Part shown: positions 29,471-43,914 of the stretch, piece by piece
How positions within the stretch are numbered: the stretch's first letter is position 1
Layout: every line of letters begins with the position of its first letter
Virus record (IMG/VR): IMGVR_UViG_3300011253_000967
Coordinates: 1 to 44,540 of that record
Length of the DNA: 44,540 nucleotides
Reading direction: 5' to 3' (one strand)
Source of the DNA: a virus
The notes under the pieces: model-generated
Database searches by the model: none
What the model saw: the letters and a program-made list of their open reading frames with translations, nothing else
What the model was told of the DNA's origin: nothing
Made by a program: the position numbers and the translations under genes

Positions 29471-29703
29471 GATTCGTCACTCTTGCAAGCGTCGAGGTTC
29501 TTTTGCGCGGCGAGGCACCGCGCGATCCTCAGCTCGTTGCCTGTCAGAAGACAGCTGACTTGTCTTAGGTCTCGCGCGGCCGCTTCGTATACCAGTTTGC
29601 GCTTTACGTATCCGTCTATCAGTCTTTGACGATTGCTAGGCCGCTCGTCGTACGCCTCTTTGATGTCCGCGTCCGTCCACACCTTCGGGCTTACGTGGTT
29701 CAC
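29467..29703 (-). CDS. Small helical hypothetical protein
   Basis: This 78-residue protein starts most likely at GTG 29703, which overlaps the stop of the RecD2-like helicase (GTGA). A GTG at 29727 is the only earlier choice. It is helical and charged (WTDADIKEAYDERPSNRQRLI, shown in part, and VKRKLVYEAAARDLR) with two cysteines at the end region. It may bind DNA or the helicase. No family recognised. Confidence 0.5.
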   Translation of the reverse strand: MNHVSPKVWTDADIKEAYDERPSNRQRLIDGYVKRKLVYEAAARDLRQVSCLLTGNELRIARCLAAQKNLDACKSDES

Positions 29704-30899
29704 AGTTCCCCCATGATGCGCTCGCACAAAGCGGTGTTTCGTTTCGTGTCGCGCTTCGACTTGAGCGCGTGCGCTATGCCGCGTTCATCGCCGACGATGC
29801 ACACGCCTTTCTTGCCGCGTGTGATAGCGGTGTAAAGCAACTGGCGAGTGAGCATGTAACTGTGCGTTGAGTGCGCGATGACGATGACCCACGGCCATTC
29901 ACTGCCCTGCGATTTGTGGATGGTGAGCGCGTACGAAAGTTTCAGCTGGCGCGCGTCCGCCTTCGTGTATGTGACGTGGCCTTGTCGGTCCGCGTATTTC
30001 ACGCGGAGCCCGCGCGCGTCGATGGACGCGACCGTGCCGCACTCTCCGTTGAACACGCCTAGGTTATAGTCGTTCTTCGTGTGGATCACTGGGTCGCCGA
30101 CGCGAAGGAAGTTCGGTTCAAACCCCCATTGTATTGTCCCTGGAATGAGAGGATTGAACCGGGCTTGTAAGCGCTGGTTGATCTCTTCGGCCCCGGCCTT
30201 GCCTGTCTTCTGCGGGACTAGGATTTGCGGAAGTGCAAGTGCGCCTAGCCGCTCTCTCAAAATGCGTCCGATGTCACCGGCGAACTTTGGGATATTCGGA
30301 GCGGCGTCGACACTCTTGAAAATGAAGTCGGTGCGCTCCTCGAGGTCAAGCGCCTCGCCACTCAGAATACGCGGCGCGTTGGTGCATATCCACGACTCCG
30401 CCGCCGACCGGTGCACGTTGGTGAGACGTGCGCACGGAATGAGTTCCGACTTTACGAGGTCCGCAAGGATCGCACCGGGCCCCACGCTGGGGAGTTGGTT
30501 AGCGTCGCCCACTAGGACAAGCCGCGTGCGCGTTTCGTCGATGGCGTCTAGGAGCGAAGCGAAAATCTTCACATCTACCATGCTTGATTCGTCGATGACG
30601 ACGACGTCGCAATCAATCGGGTTGTTCGCGGAATAGTAGAACGCACGCTCTGCCGGGTTCCATCCTAGAAGGCGATGAATCGTCACCGCTTCGGCGCCCG
30701 TCGCTTCGCTCATTCGCTTGGCCGCTTTGCCAGTCGGCGCTGCGAGTCGAACGAACTCGCCATCGCTTTGCATTCTCTTGAGCGCCGTCGCGAGAATCGT
30801 TGTTTTCCCCGTGCCCGGTCCGCCGGTGATGATCGAAATAGGTTCGCCCGTGATCATGTCGAGCGCCGCGCGTTGCGATTCGTCTAGTTGGATGCTCAC
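29700..30899 (-). CDS. RecD2-type SF1 helicase, C-terminal ATPase half
   Basis: This 399-residue protein consists of the SF1B helicase core only. Motifs in order are Walker A IITGGPGTGKTT (Lys32), the Ia-like RLAAPTGKAAKRM, Walker B VVVIDESSMVD, motif III LVLVGDANQLPSVGPG, NVHRS (IV), YALTIHKSQGSEW (V) and LLYTAITRGKK (VI). The N-terminal OB/helix-hairpin-helix part typical of RecD2 is missing here but is encoded by the 33250 gene upstream in the same operon. RecD2 is a 5'-3' helicase. A complex of the two halves is inferred. It is GTGA-coupled to the 71-residue gene. Confidence 0.85.
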   Translation of the reverse strand: MSIQLDESQRAALDMITGEPISIITGGPGTGKTTILATALKRMQSDGEFVRLAAPTGKAAKRMSEATGAEAVTIHRLLGWNPAERAFYYSANNPIDCDVVVIDESSMVDVKIFASLLDAIDETRTRLVLVGDANQLPSVGPGAILADLVKSELIPCARLTNVHRSAAESWICTNAPRILSGEALDLEERTDFIFKSVDAAPNIPKFAGDIGRILRERLGALALPQILVPQKTGKAGAEEINQRLQARFNPLIPGTIQWGFEPNFLRVGDPVIHTKNDYNLGVFNGECGTVASIDARGLRVKYADRQGHVTYTKADARQLKLSYALTIHKSQGSEWPWVIVIAHSTHSYMLTRQLLYTAITRGKKGVCIVGDERGIAHALKSKRDTKRNTALCERIMGEL

Positions 30900-31111
30900 G
30901 TGTTCGCCTTAGCTAGGTCTTCAATCAGCTCGTCAAAGTCAAACGTCTTCGCGCCGCGTCTGGCAGCGTGAAATGTGTGCCAGTCGTGCAGAACGTACGG
31001 CGGCATGAGCACGCACCACATATAGTTCGTGTTCATGAGCCAAAGCTCACGCCCCTTAGGCGTCGTGATTAGGTACGCGCCGCTCTCGTGTTTTTTTCCG
31101 ATAGTGTTCAT
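30896..31111 (-). CDS. Small hypothetical protein
   Basis: This 71-residue protein begins at ATG 31111. The longer open frame before it is Arg-rich shadow of the methyltransferase gene. It has GAYLITTPKGRELWLMNTNY, then MWCVLMPPYVLHDWHTFHAA: a beta-then-helix layout with aromatic residues. It ends FDELIEDLAKANT, GTGA-coupled to the helicase. No family recognised. It lies between methyltransferase and helicase. Confidence 0.55.
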   Translation of the reverse strand: MNTIGKKHESGAYLITTPKGRELWLMNTNYMWCVLMPPYVLHDWHTFHAARRGAKTFDFDELIEDLAKANT

Positions 31112-31140
31112 TGAGCTTCGTCTTTCTTTCGTTTGGTTTT

Positions 31141-31827
31141 CTAGTTCCACGCGTCGCCCCACCATTCGGTTTGCGGGCGTTGGATCGGGTCGCGCTTTCC
31201 GCGCGGCAGCTGGTAGCGGACCACGCACCATTCCTGTTTGCCTCCGCCTTCTCCGTACGCGGGGCGTCTGGACAAGTAGGCAACGTTTAGGATGTTCGCC
31301 ACGGACCAAACGACTTCCCGACGGTCGACGCCCGCTAGACAGTTGAGCCGTAGCAGCGCCACGACGTCGCCCGAAGGTCCTGCGTCATGCATCGCCTTGA
31401 CCATGAAGTCAGCGACGTCGATGCCCTCTCTCGAGGCGTCCGGCGGATTCATAAAGACCGTGGCTCCGCGCACATCAAAGCTCGGGCCGGTCTTCAAGTA
31501 GTCCATGCGCAACGTCTGCACGCGCTGCGGGCTACGGCCGCCAAGCGCTGGCGTTGGTTGGTACACGTCAGCGAATCGCTCGCGAATATGTTCGATCCAT
31601 CGTGGGTCAACGTCCATCGCTAAGACCGTTTCCGACTCCGCCTCTAGGGCCGCTTTTATAAGCGATCCGCTTCCGGCAGTGGGCTCAACCACAAGCTTGC
31701 GACGCGCAACAAAACTTCTCGCGATCCGGCGCGCGAGCTTGGGCGGTGTGAACCACTGCGCCAAGCTCGCGTCATAGGCCGGGGCGATGTCCGGCATTAG
31801 TGAAAGCTGGACATCGCCGTCGCTCAT
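31141..31827 (-). CDS. Class I SAM methyltransferase-like protein with NPPD
   Basis: This 228-residue protein has an N6-adenine methyltransferase-like core. LAQWFTPPKLARRIA resembles the QxFTP N-terminus of M.TaqI-type enzymes, VVEPTAGSGSL (E48-P-T-A-G52) is the SAM-binding motif I, and FMNPPDAS (N127-P-P-D130) occupies motif IV. The usual catalytic NPP[YFW] has Asp instead of the aromatic, which flips and stacks on the adenine in active enzymes. It may be inactive, have changed target, or act on something else. It is ATGA-coupled to the upstream gene. Confidence 0.65.
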   Translation of the reverse strand: MSDGDVQLSLMPDIAPAYDASLAQWFTPPKLARRIARSFVARRKLVVEPTAGSGSLIKAALEAESETVLAMDVDPRWIEHIRERFADVYQPTPALGGRSPQRVQTLRMDYLKTGPSFDVRGATVFMNPPDASREGIDVADFMVKAMHDAGPSGDVVALLRLNCLAGVDRREVVWSVANILNVAYLSRRPAYGEGGGKQEWCVVRYQLPRGKRDPIQRPQTEWWGDAWN

Positions 31828-32354
31828 GTGCTTGGCCCTTCGGTTTCAGACGACGGGCTGTAGTTCGACACTGCGTCGCCCTTTGCTTCGGCGGCGCGTC
31901 GGACTTCGGCGGCTTCCGCGAGTTGCTTCGCCAGCGCCGCGTTTGCCTCCTCTTTTTTCTGCGCCGCTTCCGCGCTGATCTTGGATCGCTCACCAAACGT
32001 GGCTTCAGCATCGTGCACTAGTTTATGAATGTCCGCGCCGGAGATGCCGGAGCACAAGAGTGCGTCAACACCAATGAGCACAGCAACCGATCCGATGACG
32101 CTTCGTGGCACGCCGGCGCCGCTAAGCTTGTCGCACGTCACCGCTAACGTCATCGCCGTCGCGTTCTCTACGGCGGCGCGCGCGTCAAGCTCCGCCCCGT
32201 CTTCCGTGACGTCGATCACCGAACCGGGCTCTACTGCGCCATGCTTTGACCCGGCAACCTTAGCCTTTGCGTCGATGACTTTCGCCGCGTTGCTCATTGT
32301 CTCTTTGTGTCCGGACTTGATGGCCGGGCGTTCTTCGTTTGTGTTTTCTGACAT
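31824..32354 (-). CDS. Ala-rich hypothetical protein
   Basis: This 176-residue protein has a disordered N-terminus, an Ala/Val/Gly middle part (SVAVLIGVDALLCSGISGAD) and a charged Ala/Glu/Lys helix at the C-terminus (AAQKKEEANAALAKQLAEAA), likely a coiled coil. ATG 32354 has AGGAAGCGAG. It follows the RecD2 N-terminal gene by 11 bases and overlaps the methyltransferase by ATGA. It may bridge the helicase halves, by position only. Confidence 0.55.
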   Translation of the reverse strand: MSENTNEERPAIKSGHKETMSNAAKVIDAKAKVAGSKHGAVEPGSVIDVTEDGAELDARAAVENATAMTLAVTCDKLSGAGVPRSVIGSVAVLIGVDALLCSGISGADIHKLVHDAEATFGERSKISAEAAQKKEEANAALAKQLAEAAEVRRAAEAKGDAVSNYSPSSETEGPST

Positions 32355-32365
32355 GGTCTCGCTTC

Positions 32366-33250
32366 CTATTTTCGTTGTTGTAAAAGCGCACGGATTCTAT
32401 CCGCGCAACGTTGTTCATGCTTGTTAAGCGAGCGCGTAAACGTTCGCTTTCCATGTTGGACAAACTCGCCACGCTTGCGCATGATCGCGAGGTGCTTCGC
32501 CACTATGTCGCCGTCGATGCGCAGCACCTTTTCGGCGGAGATTTTCACGAGCTTGCCGGTCGGGACGTAGCAGTGCCCGGAGCCCGTGGCTTCTTTCATT
32601 GTGTGCCGTAGTCCGCACTCAATGCGTCCCACGCTGTCCTTGGGAACTCCCATGCGTTGGGCGATGGCGTCCGCGCGAAGGAACCCGAAACCGTCCACGA
32701 CTTCGGCCAGGTCGAACGGGTTCTTTCGTAAGCGCTCTTCGGATTCGTCGCCCCACTTCGCGAGCATCCGCGCGACTTGGTTTTCAGTCATGCCCCACGA
32801 ACGGAAGCGGATCATTTCGTCACGCTCTTTGCGAAAGGATTTGTATGCCTCGACGATCTCCGTTGCACGCTCCGGCGTGATGCCTTTCACTTCGACTAGT
32901 CGGCCGGGCTTCCGCTCAATGACGTCCCATAGTTTAGCCGCACCATCGAAGTGCGATAGCAGAGCTCTCGCGCGATTCTTACCCACGTGCGGAAGTCGCA
33001 TAGAGATCCAAGACACTGCGCCGTTGTCCGTTTGCGGCACGGTCACGCGCGAAGTGATCACTTTGAACTGACGTCCGAACTTCTGGTGTTGAGTCCACTC
33101 GCCGTCGAGTTCAATCGAGTCCCCAACTTGTGCGCCTAGAAGCTTCCCGACTGCGGCGACTTTCCCCGTTGACGTGGCGATCGTTGCGATGCTCCAAAAG
33201 TCATCACCTACGATTCGGTGTTGTTCAAGTTCGCCTTTGATCGTTTCCAC
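32366..33250 (-). CDS. RecD2-like N-terminal half (OB plus helix-hairpin-helix)
   Basis: This 294-residue protein lacks ATPase motifs. Residues 1-80 look like the OB-like opening of RecD2 (QVGDSIELDGEWTQHQKFGRQFKV). Then a HhH-like module follows (LPHVGKNRARALLSHFDGA, EVKGITPERATEIVEAYKSF), then RMLAKWGDESEERLRKNPFD and DGFGFLRADAIAQRMG, the succession found before the helicase core of RecD2. It ends after about the position where the motor domain should begin. GTG 33250 has GAGGGG upstream. The motor half is at 29700-30899, three genes away. Confidence 0.75.
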   Translation of the reverse strand: METIKGELEQHRIVGDDFWSIATIATSTGKVAAVGKLLGAQVGDSIELDGEWTQHQKFGRQFKVITSRVTVPQTDNGAVSWISMRLPHVGKNRARALLSHFDGAAKLWDVIERKPGRLVEVKGITPERATEIVEAYKSFRKERDEMIRFRSWGMTENQVARMLAKWGDESEERLRKNPFDLAEVVDGFGFLRADAIAQRMGVPKDSVGRIECGLRHTMKEATGSGHCYVPTGKLVKISAEKVLRIDGDIVAKHLAIMRKRGEFVQHGKRTFTRSLNKHEQRCADRIRALLQQRK

Positions 33251-39017: not shown

Positions 39018-39241
39018 GTCTCTACCCCTTCTGGTTTCGTTCGGCCGGTCAACCAAACTTGTCGTCACGTTAGCGGCGGCGCGCGGCTTTGCAAACTTCT
39101 TTTTTCAACTGTGTGCGTTTTGTTTGCCATACGTGACGTTGCAATACGTTTGCGTATTCGGTGCGTCGACGTTTTCAAAACTTGCTTAGGCGGCGGCGTG
39201 CGCGTATTTGTGAGCCTCCAAACCAACCCGAAGGACACCCT
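39018..39241. promoter_or_regulatory. Divergent control region between leftward and rightward operons
   Basis: This 224-bp region separates the leftward operon (start 39017) from the primase-helicase (start 39242), so both early promoters should be here. I could not assign confident -35/-10 pairs. It contains an AATACG-TTTG-CGTATT inverted repeat, several GTCACG/GTGACG strings and a GTTTTCAAAAC near-palindrome. Similar GTGAC/GTCAC strings recur at 42.0 kb. Confidence 0.6.
39143..39158. promoter_or_regulatory. Inverted repeat, candidate operator
   Basis: AATACG-TTTG-CGTATT is a perfect 6-bp inverted repeat with a 4-base spacer in the divergent early region. It is the right size for a small dimeric repressor. 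Binding is not shown. Confidence 0.45.
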
Positions 39242-41848
39242 TTGACAGACGAAAAAACGCCGCCCAACGAAGGCCCCGGCGAGCCTAAACCCTTTCACCT
39301 AAAACCCGTCGACGGTGACACGAAGGACGCGCCGCCTGTGCTCATTCCGAAGCACCTCGAGGACCTAGAAGCGTCCGGGTTGAACGCCGAAACGATCGCG
39401 GCGTGCGGCATCTATTCCGAAACCGCGAGCGCGCCCGTCGCTGCTTGCCTGGGGTATGCGTGGCGCGGCGGCGGCGGGATGATCATTCCGTTTCGTGACT
39501 ACGATTCGCGAGCGATCATCTTCCGCAGAGTCAAGCCGGACAAGCCGCGGTTTCGCGTCCGGAAGGGGAAGAAAAAACCGGTCAAGTATGAGCACCCGCG
39601 CGCCATCGCGACGGCGCCGTACTTCGGACCGTCGACGCTCAACAAGCAACGGCTCGGAAGCGAAAACCGAATCGTTTGGACCGAAGGCGAAAAGAAGACC
39701 CTTGCGCTAGACCAGATGGGATTTGCCGCCATCGGCCTGACGGGCGTGCACAACTTCAACGACGCGAAGAAACTGAAAAACGGTGACGGGCTCGCGTGGC
39801 ATCCGGCGTTGGTCAAAATCGCCGGGCGCTACATCGCGAACAAGGACCACTATATCGTCTTCGATTCGGACTCTATGACGAATGACGACGTGATGTTCGC
39901 GGCGCGGCGTTTGGCGGGGTTGCTGCTCGACACGAAGGCGCGTTCGGTGCGTTTCGTTGTCATCCCCGGCGGTGAAAAAAAGTTGGGCATCGATGACTAT
40001 CTAGTCGAGCACGGCGAAGCGAAAGCAAAGGCGCTTTTCGACGTCGCGGCAAAGGTCGCCATGGGCGAAGAGCTAGAGCCCATCGCGCCGCGCGACCCGC
40101 TCGTAAAACTCGATTCGCTCGCGTGGTTGAAACCCGCGAAGGTGAGCCCGGACCTTCGCTTGCCTCCGCGCTTTGAGATTCGTCGCGACCGCTCTTTGTG
40201 GATCGAACCACTGGATCCGCAAGCGGACATGAAAGAGCTTACGCGTTCGGTGGTGCTCCCTGTTCGTCTCATGCGCGAGCACGCCGGCGAAGCGGAGCGC
40301 GTCGAACTTGCATGGTTCGTTCGTGGCGAATGGCGGCGCGCCGTCGTCAACCGGCATTCGTTGCGAGACTCGCGGAGGCTGCTCGCCGACACGCCGCCGT
40401 CGATGGCCATCACTTCGAATAACGCGAGCGCCATCGTCGCATGGTTCGAAGAATACATGAGGCACAACGAAACGCGATTGCGATGCGTGAGCTACGTTAG
40501 CGTTGGCGGGTGGCAAGACAACATAGCGGGCACCTGCTTTATGTTGGACCAACCCATCGCGAGGGGCGTCGAAGAAACGCTAGTAGGCGACGACATGGGA
40601 GACAGCGCGAAAACGCTTTCGGCACTCAAGCCGAAGGGTAGTTATGACAAGCACATAGGTGTGCTTCGTGAGGCGTTCGAAGCGGATGACACCGCGGCGA
40701 TTGCGATACTCGCGGCACTCGCCGCGCCGCTGCTCAAAGTGTTCAACGCGCCGAACTTCACGATCAACCTTTACGGAGATTCGTCGACGGGCAAAACGTC
40801 CATGATGAAAGTGGCGACGTCGACGTACGGCGACCCTTCGTCGCCTCAGTGGGTCGCTAGTTGGAATGCTTCCGCGGCCGCGATGGAGGCCAGGGCTCAA
40901 GTCTTGTGTGACTTGCCGTTGCCCTTTGACGAGGTCGGTTCGGGCGAACAACGCGCGATTGAAAAGTCCGTGTACATGCTCAACAACGGAACCGGCCGCG
41001 CGCGTTCAAATCAGCAACTAGGAACACGCGAAACGGCAAGTTGGCGCAGCATTGTTTTCTCGACAGGCGAACACCAGTTGGTTGACCGTCACGCAACTAC
41101 GGGTGCGCAAATCCGCGTGCTTCAGTTCAATGTGGTTCGCTTCGGCGGGGAGCGCGGCGCGGCGTGGGTCGATACGATGCGCGACACGTGCGAGGCGAAT
41201 AGCGGCAACGTGGGGCGCAGGTGGATCGAAGCGCTGGTTGACGTCGATGACTGGCGCGGCGTGATCGAAGAGTATGAGGACGCGAAGGCGTGGTTTCGTG
41301 AGAACGCGCAAGGTCAGCTCATGAAACGCCAGGCGGTTTACTTCGCGCTCATGTGGATGGCGGAATGCCTTGCGCATGAATACCTCGGCTTAGGCGACGA
41401 AAACGGAGAGACGGTCAAGGCGTTCTTTTTGGACGAAGACAACCGCGAGGAAATCGAGAGCGCGTCGACGCGCGCGCTCGAATGCGTTTCGCAGTGGCTT
41501 GCTTCAAGCGCGGAATCTTTCCCCGCTTTGGTGTCGGACGCCGGCGGAAAGCTCAAGACAGAGCGAAAGCAAGTCGGCGCACGTCTGCTCGCGGGCGTCC
41601 GCCACGGCACAAGGGTCTACGTGCTTACGTCCGCCCTTCGCGATCGTCTTTCGAAAGAAGGGATCAACTATTCAGAAGCGTGCGGCGGATGGAAGCGTGA
41701 GGGCTTTACGGCGTGCGATTCGAAGCGGATGGATACGCGGGTCAAGTTCAACGGGGAGCGCGTTCGCGTAGTGAGTTTGTCTTGCGAAGCGCTTGGAGTT
41801 GAACCACTGGACGAAGACGAAGCGGCGCGGGAGTTTCAGGATGCATAG
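39242..41848 (+). CDS. TOPRIM-like (DUF3854) / DUF927-type primase-helicase
   Basis: This 868-residue protein probably drives replication initiation. The N-terminal region has WTEGEKKTLALDQMGF and GLTGVHNF (DUF3854/TOPRIM-like Glu), YIVFDSDSMTNDD (the D-x-D of TOPRIM) and KLGIDDYLVE. The middle part, about 300-480, is the DUF927 linker. The helicase/ATPase has Walker A NLYGDSSTGKTSM, Walker B-like LPLPFDEVGSGEQ and IVFSTGEHQL (sensor-like). TTG 39242 with AAGGA at 6 bases is the best start. The frame is open back to a GTG at 39161 without a site. No polymerase gene is present. Confidence 0.85.
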   Translation: MTDEKTPPNEGPGEPKPFHLKPVDGDTKDAPPVLIPKHLEDLEASGLNAETIAACGIYSETASAPVAACLGYAWRGGGGMIIPFRDYDSRAIIFRRVKPDKPRFRVRKGKKKPVKYEHPRAIATAPYFGPSTLNKQRLGSENRIVWTEGEKKTLALDQMGFAAIGLTGVHNFNDAKKLKNGDGLAWHPALVKIAGRYIANKDHYIVFDSDSMTNDDVMFAARRLAGLLLDTKARSVRFVVIPGGEKKLGIDDYLVEHGEAKAKALFDVAAKVAMGEELEPIAPRDPLVKLDSLAWLKPAKVSPDLRLPPRFEIRRDRSLWIEPLDPQADMKELTRSVVLPVRLMREHAGEAERVELAWFVRGEWRRAVVNRHSLRDSRRLLADTPPSMAITSNNASAIVAWFEEYMRHNETRLRCVSYVSVGGWQDNIAGTCFMLDQPIARGVEETLVGDDMGDSAKTLSALKPKGSYDKHIGVLREAFEADDTAAIAILAALAAPLLKVFNAPNFTINLYGDSSTGKTSMMKVATSTYGDPSSPQWVASWNASAAAMEARAQVLCDLPLPFDEVGSGEQRAIEKSVYMLNNGTGRARSNQQLGTRETASWRSIVFSTGEHQLVDRHATTGAQIRVLQFNVVRFGGERGAAWVDTMRDTCEANSGNVGRRWIEALVDVDDWRGVIEEYEDAKAWFRENAQGQLMKRQAVYFALMWMAECLAHEYLGLGDENGETVKAFFLDEDNREEIESASTRALECVSQWLASSAESFPALVSDAGGKLKTERKQVGARLLAGVRHGTRVYVLTSALRDRLSKEGINYSEACGGWKREGFTACDSKRMDTRVKFNGERVRVVSLSCEALGVEPLDEDEAAREFQDA

Positions 41849-42020
41849 GCGTGAACAAGAATACGAAAGCGAACTTTTGTATTGGGCTCTATTCGCTTGG
41901 CGCGCGATTTTGTGGCGGCGCTACTTCCGCACTGATGATTGCGCGAAGAGAGCAGCGAACGCGGTCTTTCGGCACTCCGATTGCGTCCGCGGCATGACGG
42001 AGGCGTGGCCCAATGAATAA
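41841..42020 (+). CDS. Small hypothetical protein
   Basis: This 59-residue protein begins at ATG 41841 inside the end of the primase-helicase (overlap 8 bases). It has an aromatic helix (ELLYWALFAWRAILWRRYF) that is amphipathic or weakly membrane-like, and two cysteines (TDDCAKRA, RHSDCVRG). It lies right before the iteron region and could help origin opening or be a phage membrane protein. No family recognised. Confidence 0.5.
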   Translation: MHRREQEYESELLYWALFAWRAILWRRYFRTDDCAKRAANAVFRHSDCVRGMTEAWPNE

Positions 42021-42447
42021 CCGTGACAAAACGTTACGTTCGTTCCCTTCTGTCACATGGTCACGCGTTGTGACATACGTCAACATATATGAGGGTGCAC
42101 GTATGGTCATAAGCGGAGTGTATCCATTTGTTCACGGGCCACGTGGGCCACGGCACCTCTGTAAGTCTGCGGAATCATTGGCGTGGCTCACGTGGCCCAC
42201 GTGGCCCACCGAAATCATGGGGGGTCGGATGCGCATGCAGGCGGGTGCGGGTGCGGGCGCGCACACGAGCCTATGGCGCAGACGGTGGGCCATGTGGGCC
42301 ACACTCAATGAATTGATTGAATTTCTATACATATATATATGGAAAACCGGCCCAAAACGGCCAAAACTACATGTAGTACACCGTGGCCCACTTTCAAAAA
42401 TCCAAAGTGGGCCACACCTCAAAAAGTGGGCCACGGGAGCAAGGTAA
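42013..42447 (+). CDS. Doubtful ORF across the origin-like region
   Basis: This frame of 144 codons starts at ATG 42013, overlapping the previous stop, and ends with TAATG shared with the next gene, so its edges look like the coupled genes around it. Its content argues against coding: it translates the iterons into repeated WPTWPT and the AT-rich tract into LYIYIW, with no recognisable domain. Most likely it is an open frame in a regulatory/origin region. Confidence 0.25.
   Translation: MNNRDKTLRSFPSVTWSRVVTYVNIYEGARMVISGVYPFVHGPRGPRHLCKSAESLAWLTWPTWPTEIMGGRMRMQAGAGAGAHTSLWRRRWAMWATLNELIEFLYIYIWKTGPKRPKLHVVHRGPLSKIQSGPHLKKWATGAR
42051..42075. promoter_or_regulatory. TGTCAC...GTGACA inverted repeat
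   Basis: TGTCAC (42051-42056) and GTGACA (42070-42075) form an inverted repeat with a 13-base spacer; another GTGACA is at 42023-42028. Similar strings occur in the divergent region at 39.06 and 39.13 kb, so one regulator could act at both. No such regulator is identified. Confidence 0.5.
42305..42347. other. AT-rich tract (possible DNA unwinding element)
   Basis: In an otherwise GC-rich window this 43-base stretch is nearly all A and T, with ATATATATAT at 42331-42340. It lies in the middle of the iteron cluster, the usual place for duplex opening in iteron origins. It also carries the best promoter-like boxes of the area. Confidence 0.6.
42313..42341 (+). promoter_or_regulatory. Candidate sigma70-type promoter
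   Basis: TTGATT (42313-42318) and TATATG (42336-42341) are separated by 17 bases, 4/6 matches each. Transcription from it would enter the gene at 42447. AT-rich DNA gives many chance matches, so this is weak. Confidence 0.35.
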
Positions 42448-43115
42448 TGCCTAAAAACAAGTCTAGAGTTCGTGGGCCACACCTCGAAAAGCCCACGGTG
42501 CAGGGTTCAAAGCCCCAAAAAGCCAAAACGGCGACCAAATCGAAAGAGAAACGCCCTGCAAGCGCTCCTAAGCGCCGAAAGCGTTCGCCTAGGTCAAATC
42601 CCACCAAGGTGAAGAAGGAATCGACGAGCACCGCCGTCTTGCCCCGGGAATCGACGCCTGCGGTCGTTTCAGACGAGCAGCGGCGCGCCGTCGGCGTCGC
42701 TCTTTTGGAGATCTTGAACTTCCCCGCGGCGCTACTCGCGGATTTACCCAAGGCGTTCGCCATCCGATGCCACGTCCAGCGCGTCGATCCCCGCGACGAC
42801 GACGGCGAGTTCGTCATCGTGACCAGCCAAGCGCGTTACACGGCCGCGCGCGCCGCAGGCGTGCCCGCGTTCACGGGGAGCGAATGGCGCGCACTCTCGC
42901 GCGCATGCGAGCACGGGCGCGTTGGGCGGCGTGAGTTGCGCAAGTGGCTCGCGCTCAAACGCAAAAATCCATCGTGGAACTTGACGTCGCACACGGCGTA
43001 TGATGCCGGGTTCGGATGTGTTCCCACCCTCGCAAAACAAAAACCAACGTGGCGCGTGGGGCAAGTGCTCTCACGTTTGCACGCGAACATTATCAAAGTG
43101 GAGATGAGCGCATGA
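42447..43115 (+). CDS. Protein with basic histone-like N-terminus
   Basis: This 222-residue protein starts at ATG 42447, with GGAG at seven bases. ATG 42339 in the same frame would translate iteron DNA. Residues 1-65 are Lys/Arg/Pro/Ser-rich (KSKEKRPASAPKRRKRSPRS), a likely DNA- or RNA-binding tail. The remaining domain has VGVALLEILNFPAALLADLP, EFVIVTSQARYTAARAAGVP and LRKWLALKRKNPSWNLT with no known family. The gene directly after the iterons is a natural candidate for a protein acting at the origin. Confidence 0.55.
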   Translation: MPKNKSRVRGPHLEKPTVQGSKPQKAKTATKSKEKRPASAPKRRKRSPRSNPTKVKKESTSTAVLPRESTPAVVSDEQRRAVGVALLEILNFPAALLADLPKAFAIRCHVQRVDPRDDDGEFVIVTSQARYTAARAAGVPAFTGSEWRALSRACEHGRVGRRELRKWLALKRKNPSWNLTSHTAYDAGFGCVPTLAKQKPTWRVGQVLSRLHANIIKVEMSA

Positions 43116-43276
43116 GGACACACGCCGACGTGAAACGGGACTTTTTGAGAATGCGCGAGCGACGCAGGTACGCGCAATGGTTGCTCACTGTCGAAGTTGC
43201 GCTTTCGCAAATGAGCGAAGACGACATCATCGACACGCGCGCGAGAATGTTCAAGTCACGATGGTGGACGTCATGA
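43112..43276 (+). CDS. Small hypothetical protein
   Basis: This 54-residue protein starts at ATG 43112 (ATGA overlap) rather than at an upstream start, which would overlap the preceding gene. It is basic and helical (DVKRDFLRMRERRRYAQWLL) with an acidic middle (QMSEDDIIDT). It ends KSRWWTS and the stop overlaps the RuvC-like start. No family recognised. Confidence 0.5.
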   Translation: MRTHADVKRDFLRMRERRRYAQWLLTVEVALSQMSEDDIIDTRARMFKSRWWTS

Positions 43277-43914
43277 CAAAGACTTGGCGTTGCAATCGAT
43301 GCGGATGGCTATCACCGATGGATGCGCGAGCGTGCGCGTCGTGCGACAAGCGCAAGCCGCGTGCAAAGAAGGCGAAGCCGCCGCCCGTCTTTCGCCCTTG
43401 GAAGTGCGTTATCGTCGCACTCGACGCGGGAAGCAAAAGCGGTTGGTCGGTATGGGCGCTCGGAAAGCTTGTCGAGTCCGGCGAGTTCAACATTTACACG
43501 GACGCGGGCGTCGCAATGGTCGCGGAAGTTTGCGACAAAGCGCGCACGCTCGCGCTCAAACTTGGCGTGCCTTGGTGCGCATGGATTGAAGCATCATGGG
43601 GCGGACACATGGGCGTCGTGGGGCGCGCCGGAGCGGGTTGGTACTGGACCTATGCGCTGCGCAACGCACAGCTACCGATCGCGCGCATCGGCGACGTGTA
43701 CCCGTCCACCTGGCGCGCCCGTGCGTTGCCGAAGGGCGCAAACGGAAAGAAGCGCGACGACGTGCGCGCAGTTGAACTCGCGACCGCGCGAAAGATGGTC
43801 GAAGGTCGCAACGTGGGCCAGGACGAAGCACCCGCTATACTCATTGGAAAATGGGCAACGCAAGCGGGCGAGACTGGCGAACTGTTACCAAAAAACCAAA
43901 GGACAACGACATGA
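43273..43914 (+). CDS. Zinc-ribbon / RuvC-like resolvase
   Basis: This 213-residue protein is a fusion of a zinc ribbon (RCNRCGWLSP, then ACASCDKRK, CxxC-x10-CxxC near residues 7-24) and an RNase H-fold nuclease. The fold has VIVALDAGSKSGWSVW with Asp51, WIEASWGGH with Glu106 and GQDEAPAILIG with Asp184/Glu185, the spacing of RuvC-type Holliday junction resolvases. It would resolve branched DNA before packaging. It is ATGA-coupled on both sides. Crossover and terminase-associated roles both fit. Confidence 0.8.
   Translation: MTKTWRCNRCGWLSPMDARACASCDKRKPRAKKAKPPPVFRPWKCVIVALDAGSKSGWSVWALGKLVESGEFNIYTDAGVAMVAEVCDKARTLALKLGVPWCAWIEASWGGHMGVVGRAGAGWYWTYALRNAQLPIARIGDVYPSTWRARALPKGANGKKRDDVRAVELATARKMVEGRNVGQDEAPAILIGKWATQAGETGELLPKNQRTTT

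Follow-up and report, generated by a model that had tools for sequence, protein, structure and literature searches.

A bidirectional iteron array directly 3′ of a primase-helicase gene is a probable P4/SaPI-type replication origin in an uncultivated tailed phage

The window analysed in this work is the entire 44,540-base virus record IMGVR_UViG_3300011253_000967. Between the gene of a large primase-helicase and the downstream part of its gene cluster, which includes a RuvC-like resolvase gene, lies a non-coding gap, in and around which a short GC-rich word is repeated on both strands on either side of an AT-rich stretch. The features of this locus, with their positions in the window, are the following.

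39161-41848, + strand: primase-helicase of 895 aa, proposed replication initiator (Pfam, PHROG, PDB profiles and predicted fold)
41841-42020, + strand: ORF of 59 aa between the primase-helicase gene, whose end it overlaps, and the array
42021-42446, no strand: non-coding gap with the proposed origin (codon score)
42143 (+), 42192 (-), 42201 (-), 42294 (+), 42383 (-), 42407 (+), 42426 (+), 42472 (+): starts of the exact GTGGGCCAC/GTGGCCCAC sites, the sole eight of the record
42134: iteron variant ACGGGCCAC, 2 mismatches
42183: iteron variant, reverse complement GTGAGCCAC, 1 mismatch
42285: iteron variant GTGGGCCAT, 1 mismatch
42134-42151, + strand: outer iteron pair, ACGGGCCAC and GTGGGCCAC
42183-42209, - strand: iteron triple with a 9-bp period, the GTGAGCCAC variant and two GTGGGCCAC
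42285-42302, + strand: inner left iteron pair, GTGGGCCAT and GTGGGCCAC
42303-42382 (approximately), no strand: AT-rich spacer, proposed melting and helicase-loading site
42383-42391, - strand: inner right iteron, opposed in orientation to the inner left pair
42407-42415 and 42426-42434, + strand: two right-hand iterons
42472-42480, + strand: last iteron, within the 5′ end of the 222-aa gene
42447-43115, + strand: 222-aa protein with a basic N-terminal tail (coding score 0.12)
43177-43914, + strand: RuvC-like Holliday-junction resolvase of the same gene cluster (PHROG 827)

A preliminary description of this DNA had reported eight exact copies and three variants, arranged as tandem pairs, a triple with a 9-bp period and one long inverted repeat around an AT-rich tract, and all of this was confirmed. 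The exact nonamer GTGGSCCAC occurs eight times in the whole 44.5-kb record, always within 42143-42480; the 9-bp tandems start at 42134/42143, 42183/42192/42201 and 42285/42294, and the inverted repeat pairs 42192-42211 with 42283-42302 (20 nt, 95%). A reverse-complement TTGGGCCAC at 42005, slightly beyond 42134-42480, is a possible twelfth site. The AT content is 63% in the spacer, where it is highest at 42307-42346 (82%), and 38% in the remaining array. The largest inter-site gap measures 90 bp start-to-start and has oppositely oriented sites on its two sides, the orientation of a site being given by one central base and by the match to the layout in relatives, because the 9-mer is near-palindromic (GTGG-S-CCAC). 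As for the flanking genes, the primase-helicase upstream and the basic-tailed protein downstream are indeed there, except that the 59-aa ORF intervenes and the last copy falls inside the 222-aa gene. Within the RuvC-like ORF, ARAGORN additionally called a tRNA-Arg (43621-43717, - strand), which is probably a false positive.

The array is far beyond chance and unique within the record. The observed number of matches with at most one mismatch was reached in none of 100 dinucleotide shuffles of the record, the top 8-mer has 9 copies in 481 bp compared with a maximum of 3 across 200 shuffles, and a sliding scan of the whole record peaks at the array. An open frame does run through it (42013-42447), with a codon score of -0.165 as against +0.08 to +0.29 in the neighbouring genes, by which a 144-aa coding gene was ruled out. 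A switch in GC skew, which had been suggested as a check, was not observed at the array: the cumulative skew of the record makes no turn there and has a local minimum at 39358, where gene direction switches, and this reading is confounded by gene direction. Searching phage records with the DNA of the array region returned no matches.

Elsewhere in the record, positions 8-27 are an exact 20-bp T7 RNA polymerase promoter, present as a single copy. Contig L005 (99.99% identical) starts at window position 45, and contig L006 (69% identical) at the apparently homologous place; therefore, positions 1-44 may be foreign, adapter- or vector-like DNA joined to a natural DNA end. In the viral collection, CTAATACGACTCACTATAGGG was present in one other contig only. 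A RecD2-like helicase on the - strand (29700-33250) is in two pieces, one with OB and HHH (32366-33250) and one with AAA/SH3/UvrD_C (29700-30899); between them lie three ORFs, one of them methyltransferase-like (31141-31827), and no Rfam intron was found. In two portal-gene relatives (47-48 kb), neither the primase-helicase nor the array was seen; members of the group may therefore be able to exchange the replication module.

The primase-helicase carries the Pfam domains DUF3854 and DUF927 (1.9e-38 for the latter) and matches PHROG 8841, and its layout is that of a DnaG-type (TOPRIM/DUF3854) primase followed by an MCM-like AAA+ helicase (DUF927) and a C-terminal winged-helix-like region. A profile built from 61 relatives and compared with the PDB matched the SaPI 'pathogenicity island protein', SaPIbov1 Rep (8tch), at E 4.9e-68 and the SCCmec helicase Cch (5dgk) at E 4e-45, both matches extending into the C-terminal part, and the N-terminus gave a profile match to bacterial DnaG. 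In the AlphaFold model (pLDDT 81, pTM 0.67), residues 334-883 align with SaPIbov1 Rep at Z 33.7, the fold aligns with Cch (5dgk) at Z 32.4, the next-best helicases, MCM, reach Z about 13, and residues 57-306 align with DnaG at Z about 14. Therefore, the profile matches and the fold alignment indicate a DnaG-type primase fused to an initiator helicase of the self-loading type. The predicted helices and strands at 768-874 follow the winged-helix order, and the C-terminal DNA-binding domain is accordingly predicted to be winged-helix-like at the level of the modelled fold.

Viral contigs searched directly with the sequence of the primase-helicase or of the 222-aa protein yielded no relatives; for the primase-helicase, a five-member alignment then gave 357 matches, of which the best 80 loci were taken. 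Among the 76 testable loci of these best 80, a significant array, defined as an 8-bp word with at least 4 copies within 450 bp, lies 3′ of the gene in 67, whereas one lies on the 5′ side in 3 of 76, and at least 4 copies were found in 5 of 426 random windows. Since the loci are related, these counts are not independent events. The rule has exceptions, since the 450 bp 3′ of the gene contain no significant array in nine of the 76 relatives; in L040, L043, L063, L065, L073 and L077, no array was found within these 450 bp and the best 8-mer has 2 copies. Outside the viral contigs, a genome scan yielded three weak relatives, all in metagenome-assembled genomes, and the sole one that matches both primase and helicase (L112, a Desulfuromonadales MAG) carries 9 copies of CGGGAACA 3′ of the gene. 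In Stenotrophomonas phage AXL_3, which matches the primase half only, the upstream gap has no iterons, and two other viral contigs with GTGGGCCACGTGGGCCAC (L003 and L004) show 2-3 tandem copies, with nothing comparable to the array in the stretch examined.

Across the related loci, the words vary widely while position and geometry stay. The words include AGGTGTAAC, GGTAACCGA, TGTGGGAC, AGTGGTAAC and GGGGAACA among others, and the groups nearest to the window's GTGGGCCAC are TGTGGGAC and TGTGGCAC. Copies lie on both strands in 64 of the 67 arrays. When 70 arrays were compared, the window included, the largest inter-site gap had a median of 99 bp (IQR 90-108), the orientations across it were opposite in 65, it was AT-richer than the remaining array in 66, and the commonest tandem spacing was 9 bp. 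The window matches this shared geometry throughout (90 bp, opposite, 63% versus 38% AT, 9 bp); a difference is that its right half has a single inner site, against two in most relatives. The preliminary description had regarded a 9-bp period with head-to-head copies as unusual; this does not hold, since a tandem spacing of 9 bp and copies on both strands are what these loci typically show.

L029 encodes the closest relative of the primase-helicase (41% identity) and has the gene order of the window: primase-helicase, array, a gene homologous to that of the 222-aa protein (36% over 104 aa by tblastn, E 1e-4) and RuvC (36% identity, E 9e-15). Its array consists of 11 copies of another word, TGTTACTGG. 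Absence of the repeats from relatives with the same genes had been named as evidence against an origin; in L029 the array keeps its place and number and only the letters have changed, as expected if the word co-evolves with the initiator. Consistent with this, in a partial Mantel analysis iteron similarity correlated with the identity of the helicase C-terminus, given the AAA+ core (0.22; 0 of 500 permutations), and the reverse partial correlation, with the core given the C-terminus, added little (0.08); the correlation is modest and confounded by phylogeny.

Taking together the placement and geometry of the array, the predicted fold and the homologies of the upstream protein and the recurrence of this arrangement in the relatives, we propose, with a probability of about 0.88, that 42134-42480 is a replication origin of the P4/SaPI type, the iterons of which are recognised by the C-terminal domain of the upstream primase-helicase. 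Comparison strengthens the origin reading of the preliminary description: 67 of 76 relatives, among them the syntenic L029, carry an array at this position and with this geometry. Through its C-terminal winged-helix domain, the primase-helicase would recognise the GTGGGCCAC iterons, and two oppositely oriented hexamers could assemble on the iteron groups flanking the AT-rich spacer of about 80 bp and melt it. The primase-helicase would then travel outward as the replicative helicase, with its DnaG-type N-terminal domain laying down primers.

The 222-, 59- and 78-residue proteins had been put forward as binders of the repeats, and the C-terminal domain of the primase-helicase now appears the likelier candidate. 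An origin whose iterons are read by the 222-aa or the 59-aa protein, which in turn recruits the primase-helicase, is in our estimate improbable. The 222-aa gene does lie immediately downstream, its product has a basic tail at the N-terminus and its synteny is preserved in L029. However, among all loci fetched by then, a homologue of it was found in L029 only, whereas the protein common to the 67 array loci is the helicase. Against either small protein, moreover, iteron similarity follows the helicase C-terminus, and SaPI Rep and Cch2 bind their iterons via their own C-termini (PMC7581432).

Two further explanations take the array not to be an origin. It precedes a gene, its sites are near-palindromic and one copy lies inside a coding start, all of which would suit a transcriptional operator with repressor or activator sites for the 222-aa and RuvC genes; however, there are eleven sites spread over about 350 bp around an AT-rich spacer, in relatives with 20-30% identity arrays of a like geometry come after the initiator gene, and the closest parallels (P4 crr, the Sfi21 origin) serve replication, so that we consider an operator instead of an origin very improbable, while regulation could be an extra role of the array. 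A packaging (pac/cos) or parS-like partition site has hardly any probability at all in our view: the array being some 2 kb short of the record's right end, and a terminase large-subunit gene being near its left end, would fit packaging, but the arrays come after the helicase gene in the relatives, the searched window proteins revealed no partition gene, and portal-gene relatives without this helicase, most of them fragmentary records, are also without the array.

The P4/SaPI-type origin proposed here is of a known type, and its layout, with other words, recurs 3′ of the same gene in dozens of phages. The analysis places a probable origin and its initiator in an uncultivated contractile-tailed phage, and it shows that dozens more phages have, 3′ of this helicase gene, the layout of SaPIs, P4 and a few dairy phages. 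This provides a simple rule by which phage origins can be predicted from sequence, and numerous natural initiator-iteron pairs for studying the word choice of the winged-helix domain and the loading of opposed hexamers. Specialists may find the regularity of the layout, and the freedom with which the word changes, useful. A limited literature search found no paper describing this regularity in tailed phages, and novelty is not claimed. More broadly, the evidence seems to us evenly balanced as to whether caudoviruses with DUF927-type initiator helicases share one common origin geometry with a freely drifting word that co-evolves with the helicase C-terminus; under this geometry, iteron groups would face one another over some 100 bp of AT-rich DNA immediately 3′ of the gene. 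If so, origins and the recognition code of the helicase family would be readable from sequence for hundreds of uncultivated phages, and the unusually GC-rich and palindromic GTGGGCCAC of the window would be one extreme of the word family.

Among the known systems, the closest protein is SaPIbov1 Rep (8tch), an MCM-like initiator helicase whose homology to the primase-helicase extends through its C-terminal DNA-binding part. The C-terminal domain of the SaPI initiator recognises iterons directly downstream of its gene (PMC7581432), and in SaPI origins oppositely oriented repeats recruit two head-to-head self-loading hexamers (PMC9894130). As judged from these published descriptions, the SaPI origin resembles that of the window in having multiple short, oppositely oriented iterons directly 3′ of the gene, whereas the window has a primase-helicase fusion (895 aa), a whole tailed phage as the replicon and the word GTGGGCCAC. 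The SCCmec helicase Cch shares the homologous helicase fold, and the C-terminal domain of Cch2 binds short direct repeats downstream of cch2 (PMC7581432); unlike the window, Cch2 has only three 5-bp iterons and a separate primase-polymerase, and it does not belong to a phage.

The type 1 repeats annotated in P4 are 8-bp words that occur on either strand, with a spacing of 9-11 bp in the close pairs; of its two arrays, crr immediately follows the alpha gene on the 3′ side. By annotated layout, P4 resembles the window in its primase-helicase initiator and its 3′ repeats in both orientations; however, it has two cis regions (ori1 and crr) and the word GGTGAACA, while all eight exact sites of the window are in one array, which is not a P4 replicon in the narrow sense (ori1 plus crr). 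The annotated origin of Streptococcus phage Sfi21, a 302-bp non-coding region directly 3′ of the primase gene, has an AT-rich tract flanked by 8-bp sites, two pairs in all and opposed in orientation, and so shares with the window its non-coding nature, its place 3′ of a primase-type gene and its opposed flanking sites, although its word is GTAACTAA and its sites are fewer. Iterons of the plasmids RK2, P1 and pSC101 are about 17-22 bp long and uniform in orientation, and a small Rep protein recruits the host helicase; the window is not of this type, having 9-bp bidirectional sites beside a phage-encoded helicase. A DUF927/MCM-like helicase related to SaPI Rep, a C-terminal winged-helix-like domain in its predicted fold, iterons directly 3′ of its gene and opposed iteron groups on the two sides of an AT-rich spacer are together what aligns the window with the P4/SaPI type.
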